Positions 37,991 through 63,584 of a stretch of 64,000 nt of DNA are shown piece after piece (positions within the stretch are counted from its first letter, which is position 1; each line of letters begins with the position of its first letter). The translations under genes and the position numbers were made by a program. Under the pieces are notes generated by a model. It had not been told where the DNA came from and searched no databases. It worked only from the letters and a program-made list of their open reading frames with translations. Origin of the DNA: Liolophura sinensis (Eukaryota; Mollusca; Polyplacophora; Chitonida; Chitonidae). Where the stretch lies: positions 1,488,001-1,552,000 of the forward strand of contig NC_088300.1 of the NCBI RefSeq assembly GCF_032854445.1. The letters run 5' to 3'.

Positions 37991-38328
37991 TCTTATGTTT
38001 GTAATATCGACCTGATAAACTAATTCACGTTTTAGAGCTTTACATCTCTCCGTGAGAGTTTTACACCCCTTTGTGCAAACTCCGTCGTAACTTTATGGGT
38101 TTACGTAATGTGGCATTATAACACTGTGTGAGATCGCAGAGCACCATTGATTTTAGTCGACTTAAACCAAAGATCTGGAACCTGCATGTAGTACATGACG
38201 GTTTGTCCTCGGAAAGTCTCTTACGGCGTCAATTTCTATTGTGTTACAGACCAAAGGTTATAGCGGCTGAATACTGTAGCAATCCATTTATACTAAAGAC
38301 AGAGGAACACTGAGCAGGCAATAATAAA

Positions 38329-39329: not shown

Positions 39330-39753
39330 GTAAGGCAATTGTACATTGCTTGAACATGGGTATTGAAAAAATTAAATGGCGGGAGATAGAACAAAACAAT
39401 AAGATATGCGTACTTTTTTGGCAAATGTTACGATATTCTCAGTCATTTAAATCATTTTCGGATTTTTTTGCCCTTAAAAATTGAAGAAAGAATTAAAACA
39501 TTGTTTTTGTGTTGTTCTTGATAACAAAAACGTGCTGTAATATTCTTGTGGACTCATTTTTAATTACGTTTGGACTTTTTGAAGTCAAAATGATATCAAA
39601 AGAATGGTGAGTGCTGAAATGTAACCATTGCTATAAAACAGTAAAAGTAGTTGTCATTTACCTGGTAGATTATATGATACCACATACACACTATGGAATC
39701 CTTACCTTTTCTTTTCCTGGGTCTAGCTGAGCTTGTTCGTGTTTCACTTTCAG

Positions 39754-39954
39754 GGGTTGGTGTTGATGGACGCATTCATCTTAATGTCGGGCTGGTCAGA
39801 AAACCGGGAAGCCATAAACATCCCTGATAGAGTGGCGGCCACCATGAGGACCAGTGGCATGTCATCACGCTGACCTCTCTCACAGACCTGGTGGCCTTTC
39901 TGATCGGAATGACCAGCTCCTTCTACTCAGTGAGGATATTCTGCTTGTATACAG
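39754..39954 (+). pseudogene. PTCHD3-like exon 2 with two indels
   Basis: The acceptor tttcag|gggttgg joins in phase to exon 1 as VIGVGVD, the conserved GxGVDD segment of the fourth membrane helix. A G appears extra in gatggacgc (about 39,777) and an A missing in atgtcatcacg (about 39,861). Together they restore the frame. Encodes SENREAINIPDRVAATM and SLTDLVAFLIGMTSSF, typical of Patched-domain proteins. The donor is acag|gtaagg. Confidence 0.8.
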
Positions 39955-40138
39955 GTAAGGGTGAATACAGTTTTGATCTGTTTTAGGAATCATTTTGACA
40001 TGTTTCATGTATAATGTGAAGGTAAAGGTTGTAGAGAGATAAACGCTCTTCAACACATTTCATATCTAATTGCGTTTGTTTTTTCAGAGAAAAAATGTGT
40101 TTTTGTATTTTTCTGATTAAATTCTGCTTTTTCCACAG

Positions 40139-41910
40139 CTTTGACTATCCTGTTCTGTTACCTGAACCAAATCACGCTGTTTGCCGGATGCTTGGCTGTA
40201 CACGGACGTAGAGTGGAACAAAACCGGCACTGTGCCACGTGTATGGTGGTGAAGTCGGCAGATGAGATCAGGAACAGCACGCAAACAGAGATTAGAGAGG
40301 ACTCTCCAGGAGGATCAACGATAGCTTACCCATCAAAGGAAAATGCGACCTACAGAAAACACACCAACAAAGCCAGCCTTCACCAGTCAGCTCCTGAGAG
40401 ACACAATGCCATTCCAGTGACATCAAGAATTAAAAGTTCATCTGCCAGCTTGTGCTTACAGCTATGTTTCTGTTCCGGTCAACCGTCTCAGAAACTGGGC
40501 GACGATGGTAACTGCTTTGAGTGGGCGCCGCGTAAACGTCTTCCTACCCTTGTCCTGTCTCTACCTGCCAAGATCTTGATTGTTCCCATGTTCTTAGGTT
40601 ATCTCGCAATGTCTATCTACGGGGTTATCTATTTACGACAGGGCCTCGAACTGAAGAACCTTATAGCTCCGTCTTCGTATTTCTATGAATATACTAACTG
40701 GAACACGGATCACTATCAGCAACGTTTCTTGGTTACGTTTTTTGTCAGTCAGTCGCTGGCTTACAATGACGACACAAATATAAACACACTGGAAAACCTT
40801 TTTGAGGAGGTGAAGGCTGACAGCACCATACAAGACAACTTCCAGATCTCCTGGATGACCACTTACCAAAACTCCACTTTTTATGACCCATCCACCAAAG
40901 AGAATTTCTCAGGCGGACTGAAAAAGTTTCTTCTGCATTATCCCTTGTTTGAGAACGATATTAGATTTGGGGACAATTCGTCCGAGATCACGGGCTCACG
41001 GTTTCATTTTCAGACAGTTGATCTCCCAGATTCTTCACAGCAAGGACAGTTCATGATAAGGATGAGAGACATTGCTTCTACATCCGGTATCTCGGTTTTC
41101 GTGTACTCACCGCCATTCCTCTACTTCGAGCAGTATATTGCTATCTTGCCCAACACGTTACAGACTGTAGGAGTGGCTGTGGCGGCCATGTTCGTCCTCT
41201 CAGTGATCTTTATTCCCCACCCCCTCATGTTTGTGTCTATTACAGTGTCTATGGTGTCTACACTGACGGGGATACTAGGGTTCCTGTACTGGTGGGATCT
41301 CACCCTCAGCTCTATCACAATGCTTCATCTCGTCACCGCCACGGGCTTCTCCGTGGATTACTCCGCTCATATCTGTCATGCCGTGATGCAGAATGGGAAA
41401 CTGGGCACCAGCAGACAAGATGTGGTGTCCAGGGCACTGGCTGTCACAGGAGGGCCAATACTGAACGGTGCACTCTCTTCATTTATTGGTATTTTGTTTC
41501 TGGCGCCCTCAGAATCCTATATTTTCAGTTCGTTTTTCAAGGTAATGTTACTGGTGTTGTTGTTTGGAATAGTCCATTCTATTCTGTTCTTACCGGTGTT
41601 TTTCTCCCTCTTCGGACCAGCAGAAAACTTAGTAAGAAGAAATGATCGCGATCGAATTGAGAACAAATCGTCAAACCATGAGCTTCCCATTGAAATATCA
41701 CCCGTCGACGGTGCTGAGGACCAATTTGCCCTGCCATGGAACAGTCATCATCGCTACAAAAGTTATTCTGGATATAATTTGCAAAATACCAATCAAATTG
41801 TACCAGGGAGTAGCGAAGAAGCTAGGCGCACTTTGTCTAGCGATGAGATCTGGTACACTCCAGGAGGGACCGATAAAAACGAAGTACAAATAAAACAATA
41901 TAATATATAG
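40139..41910 (+). CDS. PTCHD3-like exon 3 (C-terminal half, intact)
   Basis: The acceptor ttccacag|ct joins in phase with exon 2 (LYTALTILFCYLNQ). It encodes the rest of the sterol-sensing-type helices, a cytoplasmic loop, a membrane helix (LPAKILIVPMFLGYLAMSI), the second large extracellular loop with NST and NFS glycosylation sequons, and the C-terminal membrane block. GFSVDYSAHICHAV carries the Asp conserved in RND and Patched proteins. The tail after the last helix (LFGPAENL) is about 95 residues, charged. Stop at 41,908-41,910. The 1.77-kb exon has no indel, unlike exons 1-2. Confidence 0.92.
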
Positions 41911-43693: not shown

Positions 43694-43896
43694 ATGAAAA
43701 TGAAAGAACCCATAGCAATCGTTGGATTGGGATGCCGATTTCCTGGAGCGGGAAACTTGGACGAATTCTGGAGAGTGTTATCAAAGGGAGAAAACCATGT
43801 CATAGACGTGCCGCCGGACAGATGGAACATAGATGCATGGTATCATCCGGACGCTCCTGGGAAGATGTACACACGAAAACTGGGCGCTGTCAAAGG
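43694..43896 (+). CDS. PKS exon 1 (KS N-terminus)
   Basis: Starts [20 protein letters not shown]; the second ATG, two codons on, is an alternative start. Contains [13 protein letters not shown], typical of the KS N-terminal region. The donor is aaagg|gtttgt, a weak GT, chosen because it alone joins exon 2 in phase as AVKGHDEFD. Confidence 0.9.
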
Positions 43897-46800
43897 GTTT
43901 GTAATGTAAAACTACATGTAAAAAAATGTAGGCCTGTATCCAAGGGATACACATCGTTTGAAATCCGGTATCCTTTTAACGGTTATGATGATTGGTGTCG
44001 CAACTGCTTGTGCAGACATGACATTGATGTCTGAATGACCTTCCCACATACGATCGGAGAGGAAGTCTGAGCTTGTGCATTGGCGAGGGGCTCCTTTATC
44101 ATCGTTCGGCGCTAGTACGTTCTCCTCCTCAGATCCAGCTTTAGCTAGGCTTCAGTACCGTTACTCGTGATCATAGTACCGGTAATGCTTATGTATCCGT
44201 GATTCTACTACGGTACTACAAAGCTATAAATGGGCGTTCCAAGTCGATAATTGCAAAACTCATTTCCAAAACAACCTGACTTACAGTAGTTCCCAATGTG
44301 TAATGTGTAAATGTGTAAACAATGTGTAAAAAATAACATACATAAATAGTAAATAAAGCTGCTAACATGTAAGAGAGAAGCAAACAACAGATTTCGCTGG
44401 TGTAGATCGGTGTTCGGAGGCCCTGAATGATCTGTCCATATTTGCCAACCAGTACACTATACTCAGTACATGTTTTAGGAAACTTGGAGTGAAGGCGCTT
44501 GATGGAATACCTTTAAATATTAGTTTTTAATTAAAACCTTGTGACGTAGGTTTCATAATTACATTTTACATTTGATCTAGTAAACGTTTCAAGACGATAT
44601 ATGTGTACGCTATGTGTAGGACATTGAGGTACATTACTATCCAAGCAAGGATACATCACAGTTTCATACTGGAAGTTATCCCTTTTGTCATAAAGGCGGC
44701 GCGACATGAGACGTTGGTCAACATTGTACAGACATACGAAATAAGATGCCCTAGCAGAACTAGTCGTCTACTTCTTGGTAATTTCTGCACATACAGTAGT
44801 CGTATTCGTACAGTCAGGTTTAAAGGCCTGTTAATAGAGGTGCTTAACTTGTACCTATATGAACCCATATGTACCTGTATTCACCTGTAAGGAATCTGGC
44901 ATTCACCTGTAAGGAATCTGGCATTCACCTGTAAGGAATCTGGTATTCACCTGTAAGAAATCTGGCATTCACCTGTAAGGAATCTCACATTAAAAGAGAT
45001 GTGAGATTAAAGAGACTATATCGAAAAATCGACAACACTATAAAAAGTGCAGGTACTAGTCTAATAATTCACTGAAATTTTTTTATGTTTTTTAGACACG
45101 ATGAGTTTGACAATCTTCTGTACGGAATCAGCGAATCAGAGTCGATTAAGATGGACCCTCAGCAGAGATTTGTGCTGGATTCGGTCCATATGGCACTGGA
45201 GGATGGTGGGTTTACCAGGGAACAGCTTCGGGGCAGTAAAACTGGTGTCTATATAGGTAACTAAACATTCTGTTCAAAACATGGCCTTGTTTACCTAGTA
45301 CAGCCCCCCCCCCCCCCCCCCAAAAAAAAAAAACAAACACCTTTTTTATCAAGTGCATAAAACAAGCGTCTAATCAGGTAACTAAACAATCCATACAAAA
45401 CACAGACTTGTTTACAAAGTGGAATAAAACAGGCGTCTATATATACAGGTAACGAAATAATCCATACAAAACACAGACTTGTTTACAAAGTGGAATAAAA
45501 CAGGCGTCTATCTATACGGGTAACGAAACAATACATACAAAACACAGACTTGTTTACGAAGTGGAATAAAACAGGCGTATGTGAATACAGGTGGCTAAAC
45601 GTTCTGTACAAAACACAGGGACTTGTTTATTAGGCAACAGCTTTGGGACAGGGGTAGGGGGCTGATGGATTTACACCTTACTCAAGAATAGTTCGGCGAC
45701 AGTACAGCAGCCAGCTCTGCTCGTAGATACATTCTATTGATAGTACAATGGCCAGCTCTGCCCATAGATACATTCCAGTGACAGTACAGCAGCCAGCTCT
45801 GCCCATAGATACATTCCAGTGACAGTACAGCAGCCAGCTCTGCTCGTAGATACATGTACCTGCAGCCATTTAGAGTATAGACGACAAGGGAATGGAGAGT
45901 AATACCAAGGCAGCTAAGATAGTGTGATAGTTGGCAAGTACATGGAAAACCGTAATCACTGACATTTTTACCTTAATACTTAGTGTTTAGTTCTAACTTT
46001 TCAGGTAAATAGCAGCTACTTACATCTCCCCACCCCCACCCACCTCTCACACAACTGAAACCGAGATAGGCAACATTATGTAACGATGTCGAAAAGTGCA
46101 CAAATGCTGTGAAGTCATCATATTTAGTACAATGACATGAAGATAAAATGGACCAGGCCTCGGCGAATGCTTAGTCCATTACCAGAATCCCGGTTGATGC
46201 GGGCATATAATTGATTAAACAAAGACAACACAGGTGGCCAAGTGGTCACAAGTAACCAGTAAAAATCCGATGTTATTATGACAATATTTATGTAAAAACT
46301 TAGATACTGGCAACATGTACCCCCTCCACCCACAGCATGGCTAAAACTTAGATAGTGACAACATATATCCACTCCACCCCCAGCATGACTGTAACTTAGA
46401 TAATGACAACATATATCCCCTCCACCCCCTATATACTATATAAATATGCATCCGCATAAACAGTAATTGAAATTCTTGTAGAAATCACTCGACTTGAATT
46501 ACTTAGATATCGTGTAGTGGTCACGTATCGGGGAAATCCAGCGCCGCACCTGGACATGTACCTAGCAAACCTACTGACGCATGGCTCCTTGGTGACAGAC
46601 TACTGCTGCGAACTATAGAGCTCTACGCAAGCCTGTTCTCTGAACGGCTCTGTGATTACTCTTGTGACTATCAAAGTTAACCATATATAACCATATATAT
46701 ATAACCATATATTGACACAAGTAAGCAGGTTCCACTCCTAAAATGTTTCATATTATGTTATTTATTTCAGGATCGATGAATACAGACTACTCAGACATCC

Positions 46801-49800
46801 TTTCAAAACACGTAGAAGTGGCTGATAATTACCACTTGACTGGATCTGCCAACAGTATAGTGGCCGCCCGGGTATCTTATGTGTACGATCTCCGCGGCCC
46901 GGCTGTTACCTTGGATACGGCCTGTTCCTCTGCTCTCATGGCCATCCATTTGGCCTCACAGGGCCTTTCCACAGGTGGGTGCTCCAGTGAATTTTAAATA
47001 CATAATAATAACGTGGAATACTTAGATGTAAGGATTCATTTTTTAAGCTAGTGCAGATAACTGCTGTGGGTAATTCTCCAAAGACAAACGACTCCTAATG
47101 ATAAAAAAGGTAGAGTTGGGAATAAAGACCTTGTTCTGTAGAAAACCAGTGAAAAAGCATGTTGATGTTAATGGCGGTCTAATGCTGGGCCCCAGTCGTA
47201 ACACTGTCAAACATCCATGGACATTCTAATGCAGGGCCCTAGTCTTAACACGGTCCAATTTCCATGGAAAGTCTAATGCTGGACTCGAGTCGTAACACTG
47301 TGGAACTTCCATGGGCAGTTTAATGCTCGGCTCCAGTCGTAACACTGTGGAACTTCCATGGACAGTCTGATGCTGGGCCCCAATCGTAACACTGTCGAAC
47401 TTCCATGGATAATCCAAAGCTGGTCCCCTGTCGCAACACTGTCGAACTTCCATGGGTGGTCTGATGCTGGGCATGAGTTGTAACACTGTCGAACTTCCAT
47501 GGACAGCCCAATGCTGGTCCCCAGTCGTAACACTGTCGAACTTCCACCGGGGGTTTACTGCCGGTCCAAAGTTGTAACAATGTTCAACTTCCAAGGGCAG
47601 TTTTATTCTGGTCCTCAAACGAAACACTGTCGAACTTCCATGGCCAGTTTAATGTTAGACCCCAGTTATATAGCTGCGCCCCAATCGTAACACTGTCCAA
47701 CTTCCATGAGTAGTCTAATCCTAGTCCCCAGTCGTAACACTGTCGAACTTCCATGGGTAGTCCAATCCTGGTCCCCTATCGTAACACTGTCGAACTTCCA
47801 TGGGCAGTCTGATGCTGGGCCCCTATCGTAACACTGTCGAACTTCCACCAGGGTGTTTAATGCTGGTCCCAAGTCATAACACTGTCCAACTTCTATGGGC
47901 AGTTTTATTCTGGTCCCCAAATGAAATACTGTCGAACTTTCAGGGCCAGCTTAATGCTGGGCCCCAGTCGAAACACTGTCCAACTTCCATGGGCAGTTTT
48001 ATTCTGGTCCTCGAATGAAACACTGTCGAACTTCCATAGCCAGTTTAATGCTAAACCCCAGTTATAACACTGTCGAACTTCCATGGGGAGTTTAATGCTG
48101 GGCCCCAATCGTAACATTGTCCAACTTCCATGGACAGGCCTAATGCTAGGCCCCAGTTATAACACTGTCGAACTTCCATGGGCAGTCTAATGCTGGTCCC
48201 CAGTCGTAACACTGTCGAACTTCCATGGGTAGTCCAATCCTGGTCCCCAGTCGTTACACTGTCGAACTTCCATGGGCAGTCTAATGCTGGTCCCCAGTCG
48301 TAACACTGTCGAACTTCCATGGGTGGTCCAATCCTGGTCCCGAGTCGTTACACTGTCGAACTTCCATGGGCAGTCCAATGCTGGTCCCCAATCGTAACAC
48401 TGTCGAACTTTCATGGGCAGTCTAATACTGGGCCCCTGTCGCAACACTGTCGAACTTCCATGGGTGATCTGATGCTGGGCATGAGTTGTAACACTGTCGA
48501 ACTCCATGGGCAGCCCAATGCTGGGCCCCAGTCGTAACACTGTCGAACTTCCACCGGGGTTTACTGCTGGTCCAAAGTTGTAACACTGTCCAACTTCTAT
48601 GGGCAGTTTTATTTTGGTCCTCAAATGAAACACTGTTGAACGTCCATGGCCAGTTTAATGCTAGACCCAGGTTATAAACACTGTCGAACTTCCAAGGGTA
48701 GTCTGATGCTGGGCACGAGTTGTAACACTGTCGAACTTCCATGGACAGCCTAATCCTGGTTCCCAGTCGTAACACTGTCGAACTTCCATGGGCAGTCTTA
48801 TACTGGGCCCTAATCGTAACACTGTCGAACTTCCATGGGCAGCCTGATGCTTGGCCCCAATCGTAACTCTGTCGAACTTCCATGGGGGGGGGGGGGGTTA
48901 ATGCTAGTCCCCAGTCGTAACACTGTTTAACTTCTATGGGCAGTTTTATTCTGGTCCTCAAATGAAACATTATCGAACTTCCACCGGGAGTTTAATGTTG
49001 GGCCCCAGGTGTAACACTGTTGAACTTCCATGGGCAGTGCCATGCTGGTCCTCAAATGAAACTCTGTCGAACTTCCATGGCCAGTTTAATGCTAGACCCC
49101 AGTTATAACACTGTTGAACTTCCATGGGCAGTGCCATGCTGGTTCCCAGTCGTAACACTGTCGAACTTTTACGAGCAGTTTTATTCTGGTCCCCAAATGA
49201 AACACTGTCAAACTTCCATGGACAGCTTAATCCTATATTCCAGTTATAACACTGCGAACTTCCATGGGCAGTCTAATACTGGTCCCCAGTCGTAACATTG
49301 TCCAACTTCCATGGACAGCCTAATGCCGGCTTCCAGTCGTAACACTGTCCAACTTCTACGGGCAGTATTTTTCTGGTTCCCAACAGATACACTGTCAAAC
49401 TTCCATGGGCAGTCTAATAGTGGGCCTCAGTCGTAACACTGTGGAACTTCGACGGTTTGTTTAACGCTAGTTCCCAGTCGTAACACTGATGAACTTCCAT
49501 GGGAAGTCCAATGCTGGTCCCCAATCGAAACAGTGTTGATATTCCATGGGTAGTATAATCCTGGACCCCAGTCGTAACATTGTCGAAGCTCTATACATTT
49601 TGAGAATTAGATTGAGGCTTCATTTCACTGTGGTTTAATTGAGCACATTTATGGCTCAAATTGTTTGCTAACAGAGTAATTTGAAGATAAATATTTCTTA
49701 GAGACATGTTATTTTAAACATTTGTACGTATTGTACTTAGAGTATACACATACAAGTGACTGAAAATATCTAAAACATGAATGAAGATACCATCAGTGTG

Positions 49801-52800
49801 TGCAGTACAGTTCCCATGCTAACTTTAGTTTCTTAAACTATTAATCTCTACTGCCAAGATTTATTTGATTTATTTGATTGGTGTTTTATGCCGTACTCAT
49901 GAATATTTCACTTATACGACGGCACCCAGCATTATGGTGGGTGGAAACCGGGCACAGCCCAGGGAAAACCCACGACCACACGCAGACTGCTGGCAGACCT
50001 TCCCACGTACGGCCAGAAAGGAAGCCAGCATGAGCTGGACTTGAACTCACAGCGACCGCATTGGTGAGAGGCTCCTGGGTCATTACGCTGCTCTAGCGCG
50101 CTAACCAACTGAGCCACAGAGGCCCCCTACTGCCAAGAATTCGCACCTAACTTAGCTCTGTATCAAATATGACATATTTTTATCGACAAGAGCACGTTCG
50201 TGTATTTTTACTTTTTGCCAGGCGACTGTGACGTTGCTCTGGCTGGAGGAGTCAATCTGGTCATGTTACACATTTCCGGGGTGTACCTGAGTCAAGCACG
50301 GATGGCCTCCCGTGTTGGTCAGTGCCAAGCCTTCTCAGCAGATGCTGGACGGATACGTAAGAGGAGAAGGTTGTGGGGTTGTTGTACTGAAAAGATTGTC
50401 TGATGTAAGTTTTGTATTTCAAAGATAAAAATATCGGCTCTGATAAAGAATGCAATATTTGTTGAACCCTCACAAATAGATAAGAGCTTCCTGAGCCTCC
50501 TAGTAACGTATAAAATGTATACACCGAACAAAGGTGAGGCAAACAAGCATTAGTACCTCAGTAATTGTCACAGGCAAACAAGCATTAGTACCTCAGTAAA
50601 TGTCACAGGCAAACCAGCATTAGTACCTCAGTAATTGTCACAGGCAAACAAGCATTAGTACCTCAGTAATTGTCACAGGCAAACCAGCATTAGTACCTTA
50701 GTAATTGCCACATTTAAACGAGCATTAGTACCTCAATAATTGTCACAGGCAAACAAGAATTAGTACCTCGGTAATTGTCATTGGGAAACCAACATTAGTA
50801 CAACAGTAATTGTCACTGGGAAACCAGCATTAGTACCTCAGTAATTGTCACAGGCAAACAAGCATTAGTACCTCAATAATTGTCACTGGTAAACCAGCAT
50901 TAGTACCTCAGTAATTGTCACAGGCAAACAAGCATTAGTTCCTCAGTAATTGTCACAGGCAAACAAGCATTAGAACCTCAGTAATTGTCACAGGCAAACA
51001 ATCATTACAACCTCAGTAATTGTCACAGGCAAACAAGCATTAGAACCTCAGTAATTGTCACAGGCAAACAATCATTACAACCTCAGTAATTGTCACAGGC
51101 AAACAAGCGTTAGTACCTCAGTAATTGTCACAGGCAAACAAGCATTAGTACCTCAGTAATTGTCACAGGCAAACAAGCATTAGTTCCTCAGTAATTGTCA
51201 CAGGCAAACCAGCATTAGTACCTCAGTAATTGTCACAGGCAAACAAGCATTAGTTCCGCAGTAATTGTCACAGACAAACAAGCGTTAGTACCTCAGAAAT
51301 TGTCACAGGCAAACAAGCATTAGTACCTCAGTAATTGTCAAAAGCAAACAAGCATTAGTTCCTCAGTAATTGTCACAGGCAAACAAGCATTAGTACCTCA
51401 GTAATTGTCACAGACAATAAAGCATTAGTACCTCAGTAATTGTCACAGGCATTCAAGCATTAGTACCTCAGTAATTGTCACAGGCAAACAAGCGTTAGTA
51501 CCTCAGTAATTGTCACAGACAAACAAGCGTTAGTACCTCAGTAATTGTCACAGGCAGCAAAACAAGCATTAGAACCTCAATAATTGTCACAGGCAAACAA
51601 GCAGTAGTACCTTAGTAATTGTCACAGGCAAACAAGCATTAGTACCTCAGTAATTGTCACTGGTAAACCAGCATTAGTAACTCAGTAATTGTCACTGGTA
51701 AACAAGCATTAGTACCTCAGTAATTGTCACAGGCAAACAAGCATTAGAACCTCAGTAATTGTCACAGGCAAACAATCATTAGAACTTCAGTAATTGTCAC
51801 AGACAAACAAGCGTTAGTACCTCAGTAATTGTCCCAGGCAAACAAGCATTAGTACCTCAGTAATTCTCACAGGCAAACAAGCATTAGTACCTCAGTAATT
51901 GTCACGGGCAAACAAGCAATAGTACCTCAGTAATTGTCACAGGCAAACAAGCTTTAGTACCTCAGTAATTGTCACAGGCAAACAAGCATTAGTTCCTCAG
52001 TAATTGGCACAGGCAAACCAGCATTAGTACCTCAGTAATTGTCACCGACAATAAAGCATTAGTACCTCAGTAATTGTCACCGACAATAAAGCATTAGTAC
52101 CTCCGTAATTGTTACGGACAATAAAGCATTAGTACCTCAGTAATTGTCACAGGCAAACAAGAATTAGTACACTCAGTAATTGTCACAGGCAAACAAGAAT
52201 TAGTACCTCGGTAATTGTCGTTGGGAAACCAGCATTAGTACCTCAGTAATTGTCACTGTTAAACCAGCATTAGTACCTCAGTAATTGTCACAGACAAACA
52301 AGCATTAGTACATCAGTAATTGTCACAGGAAGCCAGCATTAGTACCTCAGTAATTGTCCCAGGCAAACAAGCATTAGTACACCCAGTAATTGTGACAGGC
52401 AAACAATCAGTGCTCCAAAAAAAGAGCAGGAGAGAAAATCTACACAAAAGGGCATCAAGACTGCCACTGTCAAGTCTGCACCGCGAGGATCCAAAACATA
52501 AATAACAAAGTGAAATGTCTAATGTCTCGGCATGCTCTTACATCCTCTTGATTTGAATTAAGTCAGAATTAAAATATTTGAACAATGCTGTATAATTAAG
52601 ACGCACAACATAGAGAGTAACACAAGAGCAGCGACAACAGTGTGATATCTGGCAAATAGCCACACGTGACCGGTGAAATACCGCCTCTTGTTATTTTACC
52701 TCAGTTAGAGACATCTCCTAACACCACGTTTTTAGGAGAATTATGTCAGGCCACATAGCAGAGAAAACTATCTCAAAATACAGTTAATATTTGACATGGA

Positions 52801-55800
52801 ATAACCTTAATTCCATTCGAACAGTGAAATTTGATACTTTTGGTAAAACTACCTCAATCAGTTTTATCATTTACTTTAGTGTCAGTGATATATAGCAAAA
52901 TATTTTATCACATAATCAAAATTCACAGAAAATTGGGTTAGTGTGAGCTCACTGCCATCATGTCTTTGTCAGGCTTTGAAAAGCCGAGACAAAATCTGGG
53001 GCACGATCATCACTGAACAAACCAAGATGGCCACATGACACAGCCGATTACAGCTCCCTCTGGTGATCAACAGAAACAACTTCTAGAAGATATGTACAGC
53101 CGTCACAATATCGACAAATCTACAGTGCAGTACATTGAAGCACACGGTAAGATATCCTCTAATATGCATGAACCATCTCTCAGTGGAATTATCTCAAAAT
53201 AGGTAAAAGTTGAGTAACAGGGCCGAAACCACTTTATACGAATTTCATAATCCACCCATAACCCAGACACATTAAGTACCTGTTCTAGTAACTTCTCAAA
53301 CGCCAAGAGAAGTGCAATTTTTTTACCTAATTCTCCTTAAGCCATTGTGGTACGGGGCGTGTAAATTGTGACTATTTATGCATTTACATGAACAGTTAAA
53401 ATAAAACCCTGACTGAGGTAACATGACAAGAGGAAGTATTTCCCCGGTTACCTGTGACCATTCGCAATCTATCACACTGTCTCGGGAGCGGTGATGGGGA
53501 ACGAATTGGAAACAGCCCTAATTTTTTTTGATGAAACCTTCCAGATTTATCTTTTCCTCTTAGCTGTAGCAGGAATGAGGTCAGATATGTACTTCTTCAT
53601 TGTGCCATTATATAAAAATCTTGAACTGTTTCTGCACAGAAAAATAATCTCACCTTAACCGTACGCTTTTACTGACGTTCCAGGCACAGGTACCCCTGTA
53701 GGAGACCCTATAGAAGCGAACTGCCTCGGCAGATTTTTCGGACAAGATGGCAAGTCCCGACATATTGGTTCAGTGAAAACAAACATTGGACATCTGGAGG
53801 TCAGCGGCAGGAGCGGCGGGGCTCATTAAAGTGCTGCTCATGATGAAGCACGAGACCATAGTGCCATCACTGTTCAGCTCAAAGCTCAACCCAAAGATTG
53901 AGTTTGAAAAGTACCATCTCAAAGTGCCTACTGATTGCGTCCCATGGGAAGAGCTGCCCTCCGGAGGTAGGGCAGCTGGTGTTAACTCTTTTGGGTTTGG
54001 GGGGTCCAACTGCCACGCTTACGTCAAGCAGTATGTGAAAACTGATCCACCAGTACCGCCTAAACCACAGAAAAATGGGTACAGAATGATTGCTGTGTCA
54101 TCTAGAAGTTCGTCTGGTTTGAAGGCCAATATCCTCCACCTGAAAGACGCGGCTGAAAAAAATCCCCTAGACATGGATGCTCTGTCCTTTACGTCAACAT
54201 GTCGACGAGATCATCACGAATACCGTTTGGCTTTTCATGCCAGTGACCAGCAGGAGTTGATAGCTGAACTAGGTAAACACCGTGTCTTTGAAAAAGTTCA
54301 ACCAGCCAAAAAACTGCGCGTCATTTATGTGTTCTGTGGAATGGGGACTGTTTGGAAGGGAATGTGCATTGATCTCTTGGATAAAGAGCAGGTTTTCAGG
54401 GACCAGTTAGAAGAAATTGACACATTACTGAAAGAATTCAACTCTGTTTCTGTAATAAATGAACTCAGAAACCAAAGCAATATACACGACCCTGCTGTTG
54501 AGCCCCTGGTGCTTTTCGCTTGCCAGGTGGGACTGACGGCCGTGTGGCGCCACTGGGGAGTGGAGGCTGATGCTGTGATTGGTCAGTCTGTAGGGGAAGT
54601 GGCTGCCGCCCACGCCGCCGGGATTCTGTCCCTCAGGTCGGCAGTAGCTGTGATCTACCACAGAACTAAGCTACTCTTACAATCAGTTGGAGGCAAAATG
54701 CTGGTAATTGGGAAATGTCCTGTTGAAAAAGTGGAAGAACTTTGCCATGAGCAAGGCGGTGGCGTTAACGTCGCCGTGTACAACAGTCCTACAAGCTGCA
54801 CCGTTTCCGGTGACGACGAAGCGGTGACCTCTGTTCGGAAATGTCTCGAATCTTTGGATCAACCTGACATGATAATCACAGAGCTTTCTGTGAAAACAGC
54901 TTATCACTGCCACAAACAAAAACCCCTGGCAAATTCTCTCATCAAGGCCTTAAATGGACTGAAGGGACAAGACGCACAGCTCGACATCGTTTCTACAGTT
55001 ACTGGTCACTTGGCATCTTCAACAGATTTTAAAACAGCAGAATACTGGGTGAAAAATCTCACAGACCCTGTTAAATTTTATCAGGGTTTATTGAATGCAA
55101 CAGATGGTGACAAATTCAACGTATTTCTCGAAATAGGACCACGCCCGGTACTTCGAGCTCATTTCAACGACGTTTTTAGTATCGGATATAGCAATGGAAT
55201 GGTTGTATCCTCAATGGAGAAGATGTCAAACACTGAAACCATGGTAAGCAGCCTTGGGAAGCTTTTTAGCCATGGTGTGAATCCCAGGTGGGCTTCTGTT
55301 ATAGTGCAGGGTGTTACACAGCTGACTGTGGAACCCAAATACCAGTTTCAGAGAACGAAAGGTTTATTTGAATCTGAAAAATCTCTCTTAGAACGCCAGG
55401 GGCTGCCAACTGTGAATGGGAGACATCCGTATGTGAATCGAGTTTCCGGGAATCTTCTCACAATGGAAATCCGGATAAATGAAAATGACACGCCATTTGT
55501 TTACTCACATGTTGTCGGCGGAGCGGCATTTGTCCCGGGATCTTTGTTCGCTGATGTCGCCTTTGAATACGCAACAGAAATATTTGAAAATGTAGTGCAA
55601 GATGTACGAGTGTCTGTGCGCTTGTTGAAGCCTGTTGGTGTCATGAAGGGCCGTAGCCAGACATTAACTTTGATGACTGAAGCACAATCTTCACACAGCG
55701 CCAGCTTCAGGATTTTACACAAAAACTCTGCGTGTGTGTTTGGTGAAGTAGTCAAATCCGGAGATTCATTCGAGCCCAAGCCCTGGGACATAGCCGCTGT

Positions 55801-58800
55801 CCGCATGCGGTGTACATCTTCGATGGACAAAAACGAGATATATCACAGGTTGAGGCAGTTCGGATTTGCGTATGGCGAGCAACTTCAACTGATCACGAAG
55901 TGTGAAGCCAATTCCGTGGAGTGCTTAGCATGGCTAAGCGTCAGCGATCTCGTGAAAACACAGATGTGTAAAACTCATCTACATCCCTCCATTCTGGATG
56001 CTATCATGCAGTCTACCTGTGCAATTTACTTCAGTACCGAGTCTTACTGGGAAGACCGTATACCTTCCATTCTTGGCGAGATTAGCATCTACAGGAAGAT
56101 CACTGGGGACATGATGTGTTATAGTAAACAGATGAGTCAGTCCAATGGGCAATTTCATTTTAGGGTTCTTCTACTAACACCTGCTGGCCAGGTGATTGCA
56201 GAACTAAAAGACTTCGTTATACAGATTTTGAGCACCACAAAGACAACCGCAGAGGATCTGGAATACGAGCTCCAGTGGGTGCCAACTGAAATCTCTACAA
56301 AGCCTCCTGATAAAAGAGCAATTTTGTTCATTCACCGGAAGCGCAAACCGGACAAAATTCTGAGTAAGCTGTCTGACTCTATGAAGGTTATTTCAACAGA
56401 GTCCACCTCAGAGCTGATGATACAAATAGACAAAGTATCTGGTGTCGTATTCTATGCAGACCTGGGTGAAGAGACTGAAGACTGTCTGATGAGATCATCG
56501 ACAGTAATGTACGACAATCTCAGGGAAGTCATCTGCTTTCTGATCAACAGCGGGAGCGACATCCCAGTGTCCGTTGTGACGGTGAATACACAAATAGCAA
56601 AGGAAGTTTCCAGTGTTTCTCAGGTGAACCTGGATGGGTCACATCTATGGGGCATGATGAGATGTTTTGTAATAGAGGACAACAGAAAGGGACAGTTGAT
56701 TGATCTCCATGACTTCACCAGGGCTACCATAGACACTTTAACTAATTCTTTGAATCCACAGGCCTTTCAAGAATTTGATTTCAGAGAACTGATGATATGC
56801 GAAGGAAAACCCTTTAAGTATTTGGTGAAAGCTGCTCTACGTGTGATGCCAATCAGGGAGAAACTTGGCCGTCAAACCGAGACTAGTCAGCCTTTGGATG
56901 TTGTCAGTCATCGTAAGACACCGGATTGTCCATACGAATTTCGGTTGGAATATTCCAAACAGACAGCAGATACTTCATCAAAAGGAGAAACATTGTCGGT
57001 AAACGTGCAATTTGTGGTAATAACAAAACCTACCAGTTTTTACACCGATGAGTCGCAAACGAATTGGGACGAAGGGCAAAGACTGGTCTGTGTGGAGGCC
57101 CTTGGCACCACCAAAAGTACGTCAGAAACTGAGGACGTCATTGTCCTTTGTCCAACATTTGCCCGAACTGTTTTAACAGTTTCAAAAGCGAATACAGTAC
57201 CAAAGTCACTCATTAAAGACTATAAGCCTGGTGTGTTGATATGTTTGGCGATGATAGAAAACATGACCCAACCAATTCCCTCCGATTCTCACGTGGCCGT
57301 CATAACTGAACCGCAGTCCAGATGTTTTGGTCAGTTGGTGAAAGCTGTTTTAAACTATAAAGGATGCATGAGCGTGGGGATTTATGAAACACTAACACAT
57401 GGAAGTATCCCAAAAGACACATCGCACATGATTTTGTTTTCAAGGTGTCCAGCCGAATTCTTCAAAACAGAAGATACTGATCAGACAATAGAAATAATTG
57501 CCATTGAAGGCTTTGCAAGAGAAAGAACAGTAGGCATCCTACTTATGAAAAAGAGGATGTTTACTTCTCGATTAATTAGACTATCGGAAGTGCTACAGGC
57601 TGACAAGATTACGAAATGCTTGGAACAAATATCGACCATGCTGTCAACGGAATGGAGAGGATTAAACGAAATCTTGAGCACATTTGAAGAAAAACATCTT
57701 GAAATCTTCGTGTCGCACGTCATTCATGTTGCAGATCAGTCAGTGCCTTTGTGTGTTACTGAACGGACGCTTTTCCGAGGAAATGCGTCATATGTTATAG
57801 TGGGAGGCCTGACGGGCCTAGGCTGGTTGATTGTTCAGTTCATCGCAGAAATGGGCGGTGGTCTGATCGCTATTACGTCACGGAGGACACCAGACGCGGA
57901 CGCCCAGGAAAAGATGCGAAAACTAAGCCAGGAGACCAAAGCCAAAATTGAATTTCTACAGGCAGATGTGTGTGACTTGAGCTCTCTTGAAAACGCCTTC
58001 GTGATCCTACAGGCAAAGTACCCTGATCACGCAGTCAAGGGAATATTTCAAGGTGCTGGTGTGCTGAAGGATTCTCTGTTGCTCTATTCCACAGCCGAAG
58101 ATTTCGAAAAAGTTGCCTCGCCTAAAATCCAAGGTTCTTTAAATCTACATAAGCTGTGTATGAAACTTGGTCTAAAGTTGGACTACTTTATTTTACAATC
58201 TTCAGTCGCATCTGTTTTCGGAAATCCAGGCCAGACAAGCTATGGTGCAGCTAACAGTTTTCTCGACACACTCGCCAACTACCGTCGTCAAAAGGGTTTG
58301 AAAGCACAGTCTCTAAACTGGGGACCATTATGTGTAGGAATGGCTGTGAGGGACGAGTCCGTAGTCAGCAGCTGGAAAAGCGCAGGGTTTGAAGCCATGT
58401 GTGAAGAGGGCATTCGAAAATGCTTAACGCATGCATTGTTGTCCAGCAAAGTACAGATGTGCTTTGCTGATCTTAGCGTCAAAGTGGAAGGCACATCACA
58501 AGACATACGAGCGGTTTTGAATGGTTCTGCGCAAGGTGTATCTGGGTCACAATCCGAGAACGTAGATATTGACTTATCGTCAATCCAGAGAATGAATGAA
58601 GAGGACAGAAAACACTCTCTCTGGAAGTATGTCAAGGCTCTTGTGACCAGTATGATCCCAGTGTCGCCAGATCTACTTCAACATTCAACTCTTTTCTCTG
58701 AGGTAGGACTCAATTCAATGGTAGCCGTTTCCTTTACAAACAGAGTGAGGGCCGATACAGGAATCCATCTACCTGCTACTCGTCTACTCTCAGAAGACCT

Positions 58801-61800
58801 CAAGCTGATAGACATTCTGGCAGAAATCGACAATGCTTTGACGAAAAACAAGAGTTCCACCACTGATACAGAGAGGATGTCGTCCAAACTCTCACCACTG
58901 ATTTCACCGACACAAGGCCTTATCTATCAAATCCATCAGCAACGTTTTCGAAATGATGTCGATGTCCTAATTTGGACAGAATTGAACACCACATTGGTGC
59001 TTTCTAAGGAAAACATCAAAGCCGCCGTGTACAAAGTGGTCGAGAGAAATAAACCAATAAGAACGATATACAAGCAGAATGGAAATCGTGTAGAGCCTGT
59101 CCTGTTGGAAACATTTCAACTTCCGGATATTATAGAACTCCGCGGAGTTGATGAAGATATCACACAACAGTTTTCAAGCATACTGAAGCAACCTTTCGAC
59201 CTGAGCAAAGACCTGCCGTTCAGGATCATTTATAACCAGTCTAATATCTCCAGTTCTAAGATCAAGTTTATTTTCCATCCAATAAGCTTTGATCAAAGAG
59301 CAGTTCATCTGTTTATCAATGAGTTCAAAAGCGTTTTGCTCTCTGAAGATTTGCTGGAAGTAAAGGATATCGATATTCCACAGGAAATTTTCAAAATTCT
59401 AAACCCTCAGTTTACGAAACTTGAGAGATTCTGGGAGAAGCGCCTGAATCCGTCTAATGACTTGCCTCTTCTGTCATTGTCCACATCGCCGGAAGACCAC
59501 ATACCCCCTGGATCGGAGAAAACCATATCTCTTTATTGTCCAACAGATGTCGTCATCGACATTATCAAAATGTCAGAAAAGTTGAAAATCACAATGTTTC
59601 AGCTTTTAGTGAGTGCCCTTCATCTTCTGTGGCATGTGTTGACTGGAGAGGACAAAGTTGGACTTCTGATGGACATTGACACACGCCAGCATGTCCCAGC
59701 CCTGAAGAACGTCATGACTCACTGCGTGAACTACCTACCTGCTATTGGCTCCTTTGACCAAGACATTACAATTGAGAGTTTCTTACAGAGCAACTCAGCT
59801 GAGGTGAGGCAGTGTGTGGAGCATGGCCTCTATCCCGGGTTTTTGGTGCTGGAGAACACGTCAGAGGTGACGGCAGCCAACATCTGTAGACATAACGTGG
59901 TTATGGAGGAGCTCACCGATCAGAAGACCATGACACATGATAAGGTAAATATTGGAAAGACTGGTGCCGTAAGTACACATCACGAGACACGACTCCGGAT
60001 ATGGGCGAGTGAGAGACGTAAGGTTCTGCAATTGCAGTTAGATTATCACCCTGGTATTGTTACTCAAAGAGCAGCAGAAACGTTTCTCGCGGACTACCAA
60101 GAGGTCGTACATTTTGTCGTACACAGTCCAAAAACTCCAGTGAAGAACATTGCTCATGCAGTGTCGTTACATTCTGTGACAACACCATCAGCAACAGTGG
60201 ACTCGAAACTGTCCACTTTATCACACGGGATCTCGGAGTCGACGCAGGAAATCCTTTTCGGGGAAGAAAATACGGATGAAAACAACACGTTGAACGAAAA
60301 TGGATATTCTCTGGACAGCAGCCTTTCATTCCTTACTGTGGGTAAGCCATTTGTCAGAGTACTAAGGAACTAAAACAATTTTACAAATTCTTCTGTCATT
60401 GCAATTTTTAACAGTTTTAACCACAGTGGACTGTATTTTCATATCGAGCATGTGGTGAAGTAAATTTTATGATAATGTTAAGATCCGCAGCTATTAAGAT
60501 AAGAAGATAAATTAGTTAAAATGGTATTTAGCACTTGTGGATATTCTTTTGGCAAAATAGTATATTATTTTAGTGATTGGAGCATTTCCCTCATGAATGT
60601 TTATCAAATCTTTGATAAGAAAAGGTGATTTCATGAATTCATTCACTTTACTACTTATTTTAACGTCGTTCTCAAGAATGCTTTTACTCACATGGCAATA
60701 GTTAGGCTAATGTGTGCAGCAAATCGAGAAGATGTTATAACTATCAGCAAAACAGAAATCTGATAGCATTATACAGATTGTTACGTGGTGACTCGTTGTC
60801 TGATTGTCGTACGTAAGTAATTTTAAATGAGTATTAAGGATTGTATTTGTTCCGCAGGTTCCTCGTATGAGATGAAAATAGGTGACGGATGTTGTGCGTC
60901 ATCTTGGGAAGACGCTCTTCTGCGCATGACCCTGCTTAACGGAAGGCCGGGTTGCCTGGAGTGGGGCCTCGACGAGTCTGGATCTGTGGGGAAGATGGCC
61001 GTGTCCCAAATCAAGAGAGTCAGTCGTCGCTCTAAAGGAAGTGAGTTAGCAAGAAAACAATTTACCAAAAGTGTAATTTGCTAAACATTTTTAATAAGAA
61101 CCAAAAAAATAATTGCAATCTTTTATAAGTGAATATAGGCGATCTGCCATTCTCGATGTTTTGACATGTTGAGAATTTCAGGGACTCAGGGGCTCTTAAT
61201 TACACAACATTATTGGTGTGATTTGGAAGAGCAGAAATGAAATCTTTTGTAGTCACAGTGTGAGTGTTAATGACCGTGGACCTATGCATGTAACTATAAT
61301 AGCCGTAGCACTATACATCCTTTGATGTACGCAGTTACACAGATAACAGTTTAATTACAGTTTAACTATGGTAGCCATCGCATTATAAAGCCTTTGATGT
61401 ACGCAGTTACATAGATCTCAGTTAAATTACAGTTTAACCATGGTCGTCATCGCATTATAAAAGCCTTTGATGTACGCAGTTACACAGATCTCTGTTTAAT
61501 TACAGTTTAACCATGGTGGTCATCGCGTTATAAAGCCTTTGGTGTACGCTGTTACACTTCAATTAGGTCTCAGTTTAAGACCCAATCCAAGGGTAGTAAC
61601 GCTAATCAGTACATTCATTGGATGCCAGAAAGACGGCCTTATGGAAATGTGTGATTCTCAGGTGTCAAACTGTGGATTTTTCTTGGCTAAAGAGTTCACC
61701 CGTTTCCACAGACAAATATTACATATATAATATGATAATAAGAATTTACTACTCCTTGTGACAATAGTAAAAACTAAACCGTATAGCGGACTGGTGTCAA

Positions 61801-62382
61801 ATGTCGATGGTTTACTGGATTGCTGCTAAAGGTCGGCTTGCTGGATTGGTGCCAAAGACCGGTGGTTTACTGGATTGGTGCCAAATATCGGTGGTTTAGT
61901 GGATTGGCGCCAAAAGTCGGTGATTTGCTGCTATGGCCAGTGATGCTAACACAGTGACTCGCTGTGGTCGCCGTGAGGCCCGGTCTACTTTATGCTGCCT
62001 TCCTGGCCGGTCGTACGTATGTGTAGAAAGCCCTGTCAGCAACCTGCGGATCGTTGTGGCTATTCTCCAGTATCTGCTTTGTTTCCTTCCACCACAGTGC
62101 TGGACACTGTCGTATAAGTCAAATATTCAACAGTACGGCATAAAATACAGTCAGATATAGAAACAAATCTTTAAGTTTAAGTTTAATCGACATGTTTCAG
62201 ACATTCATAAACTGGAAATCAAATCCTCAAACAAAACTCTCAAGTTCAGGACAAGGGACGAGACCTTGGTAGACAGATGGAGCAATGCACTGGATCGAGT
62301 GACGAGATCCAGAGAACATCAACAGACCTACGTGAATCGCGGGGCCGAGTTTGAGACAGACACACTCACAACGCATATGTAA
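43694..62382 (+). CDS. Animal type I polyketide synthase, KS-AT-DH-(ER)-KR-ACP-C-PH
   Basis: Eight exons (43,694-43,896; 45,096-45,256; 46,771-46,974; 50,222-50,404; 52,973-53,146; 53,684-60,341; 60,858-61,040; 62,201-62,382) join in phase, giving about 2,648 residues once three one-base indels in KS exons are allowed for. It would act as an iterative megasynthase: KS condenses malonyl units loaded by AT, KR and DH reduce and dehydrate, and ACP carries the chain. The ER is vestigial. A degenerate NRPS-like C domain and a PH-like domain follow; there is no thioesterase. The N-terminus ([15 protein letters not shown]) and MDPQQR motif match PKS rather than animal FAS, and resemble the vertebrate/echinoderm pks1-type group. 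Product unknown. The three indels leave open whether the gene is functional. Confidence 0.93.
44880..44990 (+). repeat. 22-bp tandem repeat, 5 copies (PKS intron 1)
   Basis: The unit tcacctgtaaggaatctggc+at is repeated five times with two substitutions. It contains cctgtaag, resembling a 5' splice site, and leads straight into the stem-loop at 44,981-45,008. Confidence 0.9.
44981..45008 (+). other. Perfect 10-bp stem-loop in PKS intron 1
   Basis: aatctcacat and atgtgagatt are exact inverted copies around an 8-base loop, 87 bp upstream of exon 2. It may affect splicing; no evidence beyond the structure. Confidence 0.6.
45096..45256 (+). CDS. PKS exon 2 (KS, MDPQQR motif)
   Basis: Encodes [20 protein letters not shown] followed by [18 protein letters not shown]. 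The MDPQQR motif is standard for PKS ketosynthases. It ends GVYIG with donor atatag|gtaact in phase 1. The 3' end of this exon plus its donor has been copied four times into intron 2. Confidence 0.93.
45304..45334 (+). repeat. Poly-C/poly-A tract (PKS intron 2)
   Basis: About 19 C followed by 12 A. Such a run is prone to length error in sequencing, so its exact length is uncertain. Confidence 0.85.
45350..45645 (+). repeat. 75-bp tandem repeat derived from exon 2 and its splice donor
   Basis: Four units resemble 45,228-45,300, the last 29 bases of exon 2 plus the intron start. Each has a gtaaaactggtgtctata-like part, a caggtaac/gggtaac donor-like part, and the tacaaaacacagacttgttt part. Copies 1-3 keep a GTAAC donor (near 45,376, 45,449, 45,524); the fourth reads aggtggc. 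Confidence 0.85.
45685..45860 (+). repeat. 41-bp tandem repeat, 4 copies (PKS intron 2)
   Basis: The unit is acagtacagcagccagctct followed by gcccatagatacattccagtg; copies differ at a few sites. A short minus-strand ORF across it is a by-product of the repeat. Confidence 0.9.
46222..46280 (+). repeat. Dispersed repeat copy (PKS intron 2)
   Basis: A diverged fragment (gtggccaagtggtcacaagt, then aaccagtaaaa) aligns with the copy at 52,640-52,705. Confidence 0.4.
46290..46436 (+). repeat. About 58-bp tandem repeat, 3 copies (PKS intron 2)
   Basis: Units of the form aaaacttagatagtgacaac followed by atatatccactccacccccagcatg are repeated with small changes. Confidence 0.8.
46771..46974 (+). CDS. 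PKS exon 3 (KS active-site cysteine)
   Basis: Joins in phase as [13 protein letters not shown]. Encodes [20 protein letters not shown], with the nucleophilic Cys of DTACSS. Donor tccacag|gtgggt, phase 1. No indel is seen in this exon. Confidence 0.95.
47160..49595 (+). repeat. 47-bp minisatellite, about 51 copies (PKS intron 3)
   Basis: The unit is atgctgggccccagtcgtaa followed by cactgtcgaacttccatgggcagtcta. It makes ladders of minus-strand ORFs that repeat every 47 codons and are not genes. Multi-unit blocks recur, such as the ttttattctggtcctcaaat-containing block at about 47,600, 48,000, 48,600 and 48,950, which suggests a higher-order structure of 350-600 bp. Confidence 0.95.
49860..50126 (-). 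mobile_element. tRNA-derived SINE (PKS intron 3)
   Basis: On the minus strand it begins with a tRNA-like head: tggctcagttggttagcgcg (A-box region) and gagttcaagtcc (B-box-like). It ends in a (caaataaat)-type tail at the left. An exact 12-bp duplication, ctactgccaaga, flanks it (49,848-49,859 and 50,127-50,138). It lies about 95 bp upstream of the exon 4 acceptor. The head is not counted as a functional tRNA. Confidence 0.9.
50222..50404 (+). CDS. PKS exon 4 (KS) with one extra base
   Basis: Encodes [15 protein letters not shown] and the CQAFSADA segment. After the SADA codons the expected [19 protein letters not shown] lies one base out of frame: gctggacgg carries one G too many at about 50,347. 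Read straight through, the frame misses the conserved GEGCG and reaches a stop at the donor. Donor tctgat|gtaagt, phase 0. Confidence 0.9.
50528..52415 (+). repeat. 35-bp minisatellite, about 53 copies (PKS intron 4)
   Basis: The unit is cctcagtaattgtcacaggc followed by aaacaagcattagta. Variants include caaccag, cattagaac, cattagttc and cactggtaa. Distinct from the 35-bp array at 15.2 kb despite equal period. There are no unique spacers between units, so it is not CRISPR-like. Confidence 0.95.
52622..52710 (+). repeat. Dispersed repeat, direct copy upstream of PKS exon 5
   Basis: Runs from agagcagcgacaacagtgtg through the cacgtgaccggtgaaatacc part to a cctcttgttatttt-cctcag end. Its reverse complement matches 53,408-53,497 at roughly 75-80 percent by eye. 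Confidence 0.75.
52973..53146 (+). CDS. PKS exon 5 (KS, first catalytic His) with one missing base
   Basis: Acceptor ttgtcag|gctttg, phase 0. It reads [14 protein letters not shown], then one base is missing near 53,015 (actgaaca where actgGaaca would give the conserved TGTNQDG), then [16 protein letters not shown] through [10 protein letters not shown]. The end supplies the first residues of the [10 protein letters not shown] motif. Donor cacacg|gtaaga, phase 1. Confidence 0.9.
53408..53497 (-). repeat. Dispersed repeat, inverted copy downstream of PKS exon 5
   Basis: The plus strand reads ctgaggtaacatgacaagag and then a ccggttacctgtgacc..ctatcacactgt part, the reverse complement of the copy at 52,622-52,710. 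The two copies bracket exon 5. Confidence 0.75.
53684..60341 (+). CDS. PKS exon 6: KS end, AT, DH, vestigial ER, KR, ACP, C domain
   Basis: A single 6.66-kb exon. It starts [17 protein letters not shown] and [10 protein letters not shown]; an extra G at about 53,800 then shifts the frame to [10 protein letters not shown], which stays open to 60,341. In whole-protein numbering: AT has GQSVGE (Ser near 610) and AYHCH. DH has [10 protein letters not shown], an exact HxxxGxxxxP match (His near 917), and DAIMQ (Asp near 1080). No ER nucleotide motif is visible between DH and KR. KR has GGLTGLG (near 1681) and SSVAS..SYGAAN (Tyr near 1828). ACP has GLNSM (Ser near 1986). The C domain spans about 2043-2470, with HPISFDQ in place of HHxxxDG and CVNYLPAIG at the NTLPLR position. 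A 55-residue Ser/Thr/Glu-rich linker ends it. Confidence 0.93.
60858..61040 (+). CDS. PKS exon 7 (PH-like domain, first half)
   Basis: Acceptor ttccgcag|gttcc joins exon 6 in phase ([13 protein letters not shown]). It encodes [20 protein letters not shown], then [20 protein letters not shown]. The W....[10 protein letters not shown] and G.I-like [12 protein letters not shown] pattern fits strands 2-5 of a PH fold. Donor aaaggaa|gtgagt, phase 1. Confidence 0.75.
61285..61560 (+). repeat. 73-75-bp tandem repeat, about 4 copies (PKS intron 7)
   Basis: Units run from tacagtttaaccatggt through the cattataaagcctttgatgt part to acgcagttacacagatct. They are moderately diverged. Confidence 0.85.
61785..61935 (+). 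repeat. 29-30-bp tandem repeat, about 5 copies (PKS intron 7)
   Basis: Units resemble tggattggtgccaaagaccg followed by gtggtttac. Confidence 0.85.
62201..62382 (+). CDS. PKS exon 8 (PH-like domain, C-terminal half, stop)
   Basis: Acceptor atgtttcag|acattc joins exon 7 in phase as SKGNIHKLEI. It encodes [20 protein letters not shown], then [11 protein letters not shown]. This is the strand-strand-helix ending of a PH domain with the near-invariant Trp of its last helix. A polar 24-residue tail ends THM, then TAA at 62,380-62,382. The reading frame from exon 6 through 8 needs no correction, which supports the gene model. Confidence 0.78.
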
Positions 62383-63584
62383 GGTTACTGGCTGCGATGA
62401 ACGTGGATCTTGTGTTACTTGTTCCGTTATATTCCCTATGTCAGAATTGTGGAAACACTATGGCGTGATTCTTTCTGACTGAAATGTTACCGATTTTACA
62501 GAACAAACAGACATATACATTGGTTCAAGCCTCTGCTGATTTTCACATAAGTAGCTAAATTAAGCAAAAATCCTGGAATAATGAAGTTTTCCAGGTAAAT
62601 TTGGATTCGGTATTGTTTTTAATAGGAAGATGGAGAAACTCTGATGAAACTATGAATGTATTAGTAGAACAGTTCATGATATGCGAGAACAATATTTTCA
62701 TATAACATTATTATGTTCATTTTACAGACCCTAATTTCTTTTGAAAATGAGGAAATTTTTACTTTTTGTACATTTGCAAAAATGTGTGAACCAATGTCTT
62801 TCTTTGCTGGAAGCAATTTTTAAACATTATCCTTTGGAATTGTTTTATTACTTCACGTAAGTCATGGTGTTTTATTTTTTTACTCCAGCTTGCGCTGCTG
62901 TTCCACATTTGTGGTAAATGTAGAGTATGTATCTTTTACACTTGAATGAAAAGAGCATATGAAGAACACAAGTAAACTTGAACCATGTGTGTTTTACGTG
63001 GAAAATAGATCATCTCAAGTGAACCATAAAGTGCGAAAATGTAGACATAATGTTTTAAGATTACATGACCTATTGTATTGTCGTATAACCACTGAACTGA
63101 ACGTGATAATGTATGAATAATATAATCAGATATTATCAAAAGTATTTTGGACCGAATGTACTCTTTTATAACGACCTTCAAGTGTGATATATTGAACCGG
63201 AAGATAACATGTCCAACTTTATTTTATATTGAAATATATAATATACAAGTATATTAAGAAATCATGTAAAATTGTGGAAGCGGTTGATGACCATATACGG
63301 TTATGCAAAAAATTTTCAACGGAAGCAACGTGTTGCTGACCACTGTGACTGTTCCCCGGAAAGAATGTTTGTCAAATGCCTGTGATTGACGTACTAAAAT
63401 ATTTGTGTTGTGCCACATATATAGATACATCTGCTGATTGTTCCTTTTTTATAACAAGGTATTTTTATAACGAAGGTGTACTCCTTTAGCCAGAATAAAC
63501 CAATGTAAAAGTCGCCTCATGGGCTCAGTTTACGTTGTGTATGATCCTAATATGCGCACTTCAACTTTCATTTGGTTATAATCA
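62383..63584. other. PKS 3' flank
   Basis: AT-rich, no ORF with recognisable content. An AATAAA occurs at 63,494-63,499, 1.1 kb after the stop; whether it ends the PKS transcript is unknown. Confidence 0.4.

Follow-up and report, generated by a model that had tools for sequence, protein, structure and literature searches.

An animal type I PKS gene with a terminal condensation domain and a probable PH-like tail

We describe an animal type I PKS gene of eight exons, encoded on the + strand at positions 43694-62382 of a 64,000-nucleotide stretch of the Liolophura sinensis genome, in which a Condensation (C) domain follows KS-AT-DH-KR-ACP and the C-terminus, by Pfam, carries no thioesterase. Beyond the C domain, two exons encode a conserved tail, and an architecture combining PKS, C domain and PH-like tail probably holds. 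Throughout, the window is the whole stretch analyzed (G000:C6:1488001-1552000, where G000 is the 609-Mb genome), W is the PKS gene of the window, and A, B and C are its sister PKS genes.

Gene model and domain order

The exon model is one of predicted splicing, with both the frames and the splice edges taken from sequence and from alignment with the sister genes. All eight exons have GT/AG edges, and the layout is of five short exons with most of the KS followed by a single large exon 6. Window coordinates are given for W.

43694-43896 (+), exon 1
45096-45256 (+), exon 2
46771-46974 (+), exon 3
50222-50404 (+), exon 4
52973-53146 (+), exon 5
53684-60341 (+), exon 6, 6.6 kb
60858-61040 (+), exon 7, encoding the N-terminal half of the PH-like tail
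62201-62382 (+), exon 8, encoding the C-terminal half of the PH-like tail and the stop codon (PF00169 sub-threshold on the joined tail)
43694-53890 (+), KS, exons 1-5 and the start of exon 6 (PF00109 rows; comparison with A and B)
54323-55279 (+), AT (PF00698, 6.2e-47; GQSVG motif at 54581)
55457-56233 (+), DH (PF14765, 8.1e-18; PF21089, 3.3e-5, under its cut-off)
56273-57775 (+), middle region between DH and KR, without a Pfam family match
57785-58330 (+), KR (PF08659, 2.9e-51)
58628-58789 (+), ACP with GLNSM (PF00550, 2.7e-4; 21.6 bits, slightly above its 20.8-bit cut-off)
58982-60151 (+), Condensation domain (PF00668, 2.2e-20; motif HPISFDQ at about 59276)
C6 ~1.381 Mb, same strand as W, sister gene A
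C6 ~1.422 Mb, opposite strand to W, sister gene B
C6 13.03 Mb, opposite strand to W, sister gene C

The domain order in W is KS-AT-DH-(middle region without family)-KR-ACP-C, then the PH-like tail, with a KS C-terminal extension also found in exon 6 (Pfam, 1.6e-17). Pfam bears out the original prediction of a KS-AT-DH-KR-ACP enzyme followed by a C domain, exons 1-5 giving KS and exon 6 the rest, as well as its claim that a thioesterase is absent: exon 6 has no match to ER, thioesterase (TE) or adenylation (A) families. Among the families proposed there for checking, those of KS, AT, DH, KR, ACP and Condensation were matched, and PF00169 stayed below its cut-off. An ER remnant, which had been placed between DH and KR, was rejected for 56273-57775, where we find no ER family and two chance PDB matches (E 2.3).

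The tail splice sites are in phase, running from the end of exon 6 at 60341 through 60858-61040 to 62201-62382. Exons 7-8 had been proposed as a PH-like tail, which stands as coding, in phase and PH-like, with a sub-threshold PH match and a corrected exon 8 start: position 62161 is out of phase with exon 7 and was replaced by 62201, the acceptor fixed by sister gene A. AATAAA/ATTAAA poly(A) signals are absent from W after either possible end (exon 6 or tail). In A they occur several times after exon 6, with just 85 bases of post-tail sequence covered; C has some behind exon 6 and some behind the tail, and B has some too, a pattern that favors neither end.

The introns and flanks of W hold other elements. 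Intron 3 contains a long minisatellite of period 47 (~40 copies, window 47679-49587) and intron 4 another of period 35 (~53 copies, 50537-52406), and a reverse transcriptase open frame (PF00078, 1.8e-29) marks a retroelement at 28627-30696 (-). Directly upstream of the PKS, at 38314-41910 (+), lie exons of a membrane protein that appears to be patched-like; its sterol-sensing match is sub-threshold (0.0051). A Patched row at G000:C6:1483099-1483338 (-), ~5 kb before the window, is on the strand opposite to these exons. A cluster of the PKS genes with export genes was rejected, as of 12 Patched rows the nearest to either A or B lies ~60 kb from B, and C has no Patched row nearby.

The tail encoded by exons 7 and 8

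Exons 7 and 8 together encode a 121-residue tail in phase, and comparison with A indicates that they are real coding sequence. The tail of A has the same exon edges, splice phases and position; across 117 codons the W and A tails differ with dN 0.203 and dS 1.003 (dN/dS 0.20); and W-A DNA similarity downstream of exon 6 is exon-confined, at 60841-61055 and 62229-62387. These three observations rule out a chance reading frame. Read in its two alternative frames, exon 8 contains stops and shows dN/dS of 1.20 and 1.24.

A six-frame search of the genome with the W tail, using an approximate query built with the wrong exon 8 junction (62161), found four rows up to E 10, split evenly between W and A. 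Past the C domain of gene C, a phase-1 donor opens onto three further exons whose phases agree and the last of which closes with a stop. When one tail was left out at a time, the W+A profile found the last tail exon of C as its best non-self six-frame match (E 0.2), and the C tail found a tail exon of A (E 0.081). Because these scores are weak, what links the C tail to those of W and A is its position and phase, with a faint resemblance in sequence. No tail was found above threshold in B within 10.8 kb past its last stop (frames of at least 25 residues). We therefore count the tail as present in 3/4 C-domain PKSs (W, A and C), with C on weaker evidence.

Alternatively, the PH-like exons could form a separate small gene, duplicated along with the PKS and lying outside its transcript. 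W and A share a conserved Met close to where exon 7 begins, 5.6 kb separate exon 6 from the tail in A, and the exon joins of W are predicted from sequence rather than transcripts, all of which would suit such a gene. However, in W, A and C exon 6 closes with a phase-1 donor that is matched by a phase-1 acceptor, the Met is missing in C, and the genome-wide tail search matched behind W and A only, and we regard a separate gene as very unlikely.

We next consider what the tail encodes. PF00169 was the sole Pfam family matched (E up to 10) by the joined W tail (E 0.081, 13.9 bits; residues 45-96 on profile 46-104) and also by the joined C tail (E 0.017, 16.1 bits; residues 74-106 on profile 70-104). 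Neither score reaches the curated cut-off of 25.1 bits, and Pfam gave no PH match when W exons 7 and 8 were scanned apart. Ten shuffled tails yielded no PH matches (0/10) and two matches to other families (at 0.036 and 0.13), so a single tail E-value says little; agreement on PH between two divergent tails weighs more. Set against six PH domains from this genome, a three-tail profile scored 32.3 (probability 73%), a value reached by 0/200 column shuffles (best 19.6) and well above the reversed profile (9.6). With hhalign against the same PH set, W+A alone gave a probability of 27 and C alone 32. For this set 12 loci were fetched, 10 translated and 6 used (L007, L008, L009, L013, L014 and L018, with L013 and L014 near copies); L010 and L011 were dropped for stops, probably reflecting the wrong strand, L012 and L015 were left out, and L016 and L017 were untranslated.

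These comparisons suggest that the tail is probably PH-like. That it is instead conserved coding sequence of some other kind is unlikely, even though both Pfam scores fall under the cut-off, the match is missing from the exons scanned apart, and a PDB sequence search gave no meaningful relative (0 matches for C; three chance matches for W, E 0.85). Two divergent tails matching PH alone, each near the profile's end, and a three-tail profile score beyond every shuffle and the reversed profile argue against it.

The original prediction further had the PH domain dock the enzyme on phosphoinositide membranes, a role that is now weakened. Near the N-terminal strands of PH domains, K-x(n)-[KR]-x-R is presumably the phosphoinositide-binding motif. 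Its strict form, K-x(4-16)-[KR]-x-R in the first 45 residues, occurs in 0/3 tails (W, A and C), as does a laxer form that is found in 5/6 comparison PH domains of the genome. With the canonical motif absent from all three tails, membrane docking is at best a possible role.

Sister genes and the condensation motif

Searching the genome with PF00109 gave 20 rows, four in each of four C6 loci, three on C1 and one on C10. The Condensation family, with 5 candidates scored, occurs in four places, one in each of the C6 PKS genes (W, A, B and C). The only PF00975 thioesterase row is at C1:5757870. It adjoins the C1 KS rows (15-19 kb away, same strand), and C1 is therefore probably a FAS locus. Introns together with this FAS-like gene point to an animal genome.

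The exon 6 protein of W is 91 and 79% identical to that of A (two pieces), 55% identical to that of B and 26-53% identical to that of C (four pieces); with frameshifts allowed, 740/2087 aligned residues are the same in W and C. Divergence is a mosaic over window 53801-60340, where the core of W and A is nearly alike and the middle region and C domain are far apart. Specifically, W-A dS is low in windows over the KS end, AT and DH (0.04-0.14) and in one KR window (0.06); it rises to 0.27-0.96 across the middle region and again from the KR end through the C domain, where the last window is saturated. For W and B, dS is 0.07-0.09 over the first 300 codons and at least 0.57, often saturated, in every later window. 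The simplest reading of this pattern is that gene conversion homogenized the catalytic core while the rest diverged. Intron 2 of A (G000:C6:1382237-1384218; L001:2237-4218) holds ~24 tandem copies of an 82-bp unit that appears to derive from the 3′ end of exon 2; many copies retain the splice donor, making the array a set of spare exon ends and donors within an intron.

The C domains diverge from the active-subtype motif HHxxxDG, which is HPISFDQ in W, HHVSFDQ in A, HPITFDQ in B and HPICFDL in C. Only A keeps the second His, which is Pro in the other three (W, B and C); all four retain the Asp, and all four have another residue in place of the Gly. The W-A dN/dS is 0.24-0.36 in the three full windows of the C domain, which by this comparison is still under selection. 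Its nearest PDB sequence is tyrocidine synthetase 3 (2jgp, 7.2e-9), and its likeness to the MokA C domain (6ad3) is weak (E 0.069). The second His was once taken as the catalytic base; according to the available text of PMC11546977 its role is disputed and not uniform, and activity is described for a C domain with HQxxxDM.

Pro in place of the second His in 3/4 copies argues against ordinary condensation, and we read the C domain as retained to hold or recruit, not to form amides in the ordinary way. The original prediction allowed it to release or to hold the chain, of which release is weakened by the Pro substitutions, yet the active HQxxxDM domain keeps it in view. As a release catalyst, the C domain would transfer the ACP chain to a free amine or alcohol with the second His unneeded. 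Consistent with this are a clear C-domain fold family (PF00668), the retained Asp and the HH of A, purifying selection in the C-domain windows and the debated role of the second His (PMC11546977, available text). The altered second His and Gly speak against it, as do the lack of an adenylation domain in exon 6 and the LovB terminal C domain, called inactive in the available text of a review (PMC9055775). We consider release by the C domain rather unlikely.

The exons of W had been predicted to be all in phase, which fails as assembled: relative to A and B, W has one single-base frame disruption in each of exon 4, exon 5 and the start of exon 6. The KS disruptions may reflect either assembly or sequence error or a young pseudogene. 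In the second case, the tail would be the relic of a working ancestor, a possible but doubtful reading. Besides the three breaks in W, it is favored by disruptions in A (one in exon 6 and one in the first tail exon) and in C (eight frameshifts within exon 6, plus a short deletion affecting GHLE in the KS), and by an assembly that is not poor everywhere, since 5/5 full-length HSP70 rows (of 49 HSP70 rows) lie in one frame open throughout. Another HSP70 match, at G000:C1:28756494-28757417 (-), is inside a 42,745-aa open frame, perhaps an N run read as open.

Several observations weigh against a pseudogene. Exon 6 of W has a 2198-codon frame without a stop; the frame of exon 6 is intact in B, and likewise in W past its disruption. 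None of the four exon-6 alignments has an in-frame stop, in a type of alignment that can trade a stop for a frameshift. The eight frameshifts of C fall within less than 1.8 kb, the other 4.4 kb aligning frameshift-free, and this clustering looks like local sequence error. Counted at sites where the other of the two copies matches B, dN/dS is ~0.45 for changes special to W and ~0.41 for those special to A, so W appears to have no special loss of constraint.

Proposed mechanism and known relatives

Our best explanation, tentative as a whole and held at somewhat less than even confidence, is an iterative C-domain PKS with the C domain as a platform, separate release and PH-like docking. The W enzyme would work iteratively, making a partly reduced chain (polyene or hydroxylated) on the ACP. 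Instead of acting as an ordinary amide former, the C domain would serve as a platform, either keeping hold of the chain on the ACP or recruiting a partner; the glycopeptide X domain offers a parallel, and the terminal C domain of fungal LovB, called inactive, is in line with this. The chain may then be freed by another enzyme, by a free nucleophile or by closing spontaneously into a ring, and the PH-like domain may dock the enzyme to a protein or membrane site.

In favor of this mechanism we count the exon 6 families, the location of 4/4 genomic C domains in these PKSs, the coding tail common to A with a tail of consistent phase in C, the PH statistics, and a motif that is degenerate in 3/4 C domains despite W-A dN/dS of 0.24-0.36. 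Against it we count the PH match below cut-off, the 2/10 shuffles that match other families, the weak link to the C tail, the HH kept by A, the lack of a tail in B and the broken frame of W as assembled. A broader proposal, which we find doubtful, is that an animal PKS lineage converted a condensation domain into a non-condensing platform and added a PH-like mooring at a protein or membrane site, with the chain passed to a partner.

Terminal C domains on PKSs are already known. NRPS and NRPS-PKS genes are described as scattered across animal phyla in the available text of PMC10531068, and mollusc PKSs with C domains have been published, their introns few and clustered towards the N-terminus (Lin et al. 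2024, PMC10764717, main text). The original prediction that a PKS with both C and PH domains is undescribed stands for the combination, of which a literature search, mostly outside subscription journals, gave no case (condensation plus PH or pleckstrin homology domain), and does not extend to the C domain alone (PMC10764717, PMC7870829, available texts).

Like the mollusc C-domain PKSs, W is an animal type I PKS that carries an NRPS-type C domain, and its five small KS exons and one large exon fit their few, N-terminal introns; the W tail is unlike that clade as presented in the main text of PMC10764717, which has no PH or pleckstrin domain ("pleckstrin" occurs 0 times). How most TE-less animal PKS-like enzymes offload their product is not known, as that text states for AFPKs of clades 1-3. 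The degenerate C domain and PH-like tail of W offer a concrete place to test product holding, release and placement in a TE-less PKS, and the PH-like tail adds a domain to the known PKS tails.

Among fungal enzymes, the highly reducing PKS LovB is a PDB relative of W exon 6 (7cpx, 2.4e-54). Like W, it follows KS-MAT-DH-...-KR-ACP-CON without a working ER in cis, and its release is by a separate LovG (PMC7870829 and PMC9055775, available texts). Its terminal CON domain is unresolved in its structure (PMC7870829, available text). The same texts describe an active methyltransferase and a psi-ER in LovB, neither of which was found in W, and make no mention of a PH tail. The glycopeptide NRPS X domain is C-type, has the second His replaced (HRxxxDD) and recruits partners instead of condensing (PMC11546977, available text); with HPxxFDQ in W against HRxxxDD, its relation to the W domain is one of analogy only. 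Finally, the animal FAS-like PKSs EcPKS1 and EcPKS2 are, like W, TE-less animal synthases (PMC10764717, main text) and are PDB relatives of exon 6 (9cq1, 7.4e-54; 9ctk, 1.6e-41), whereas exon 6 of W scores better against bacterial PKS modules (7m7e, 6.1e-73) and W, unlike either, has C and PH-like domains.
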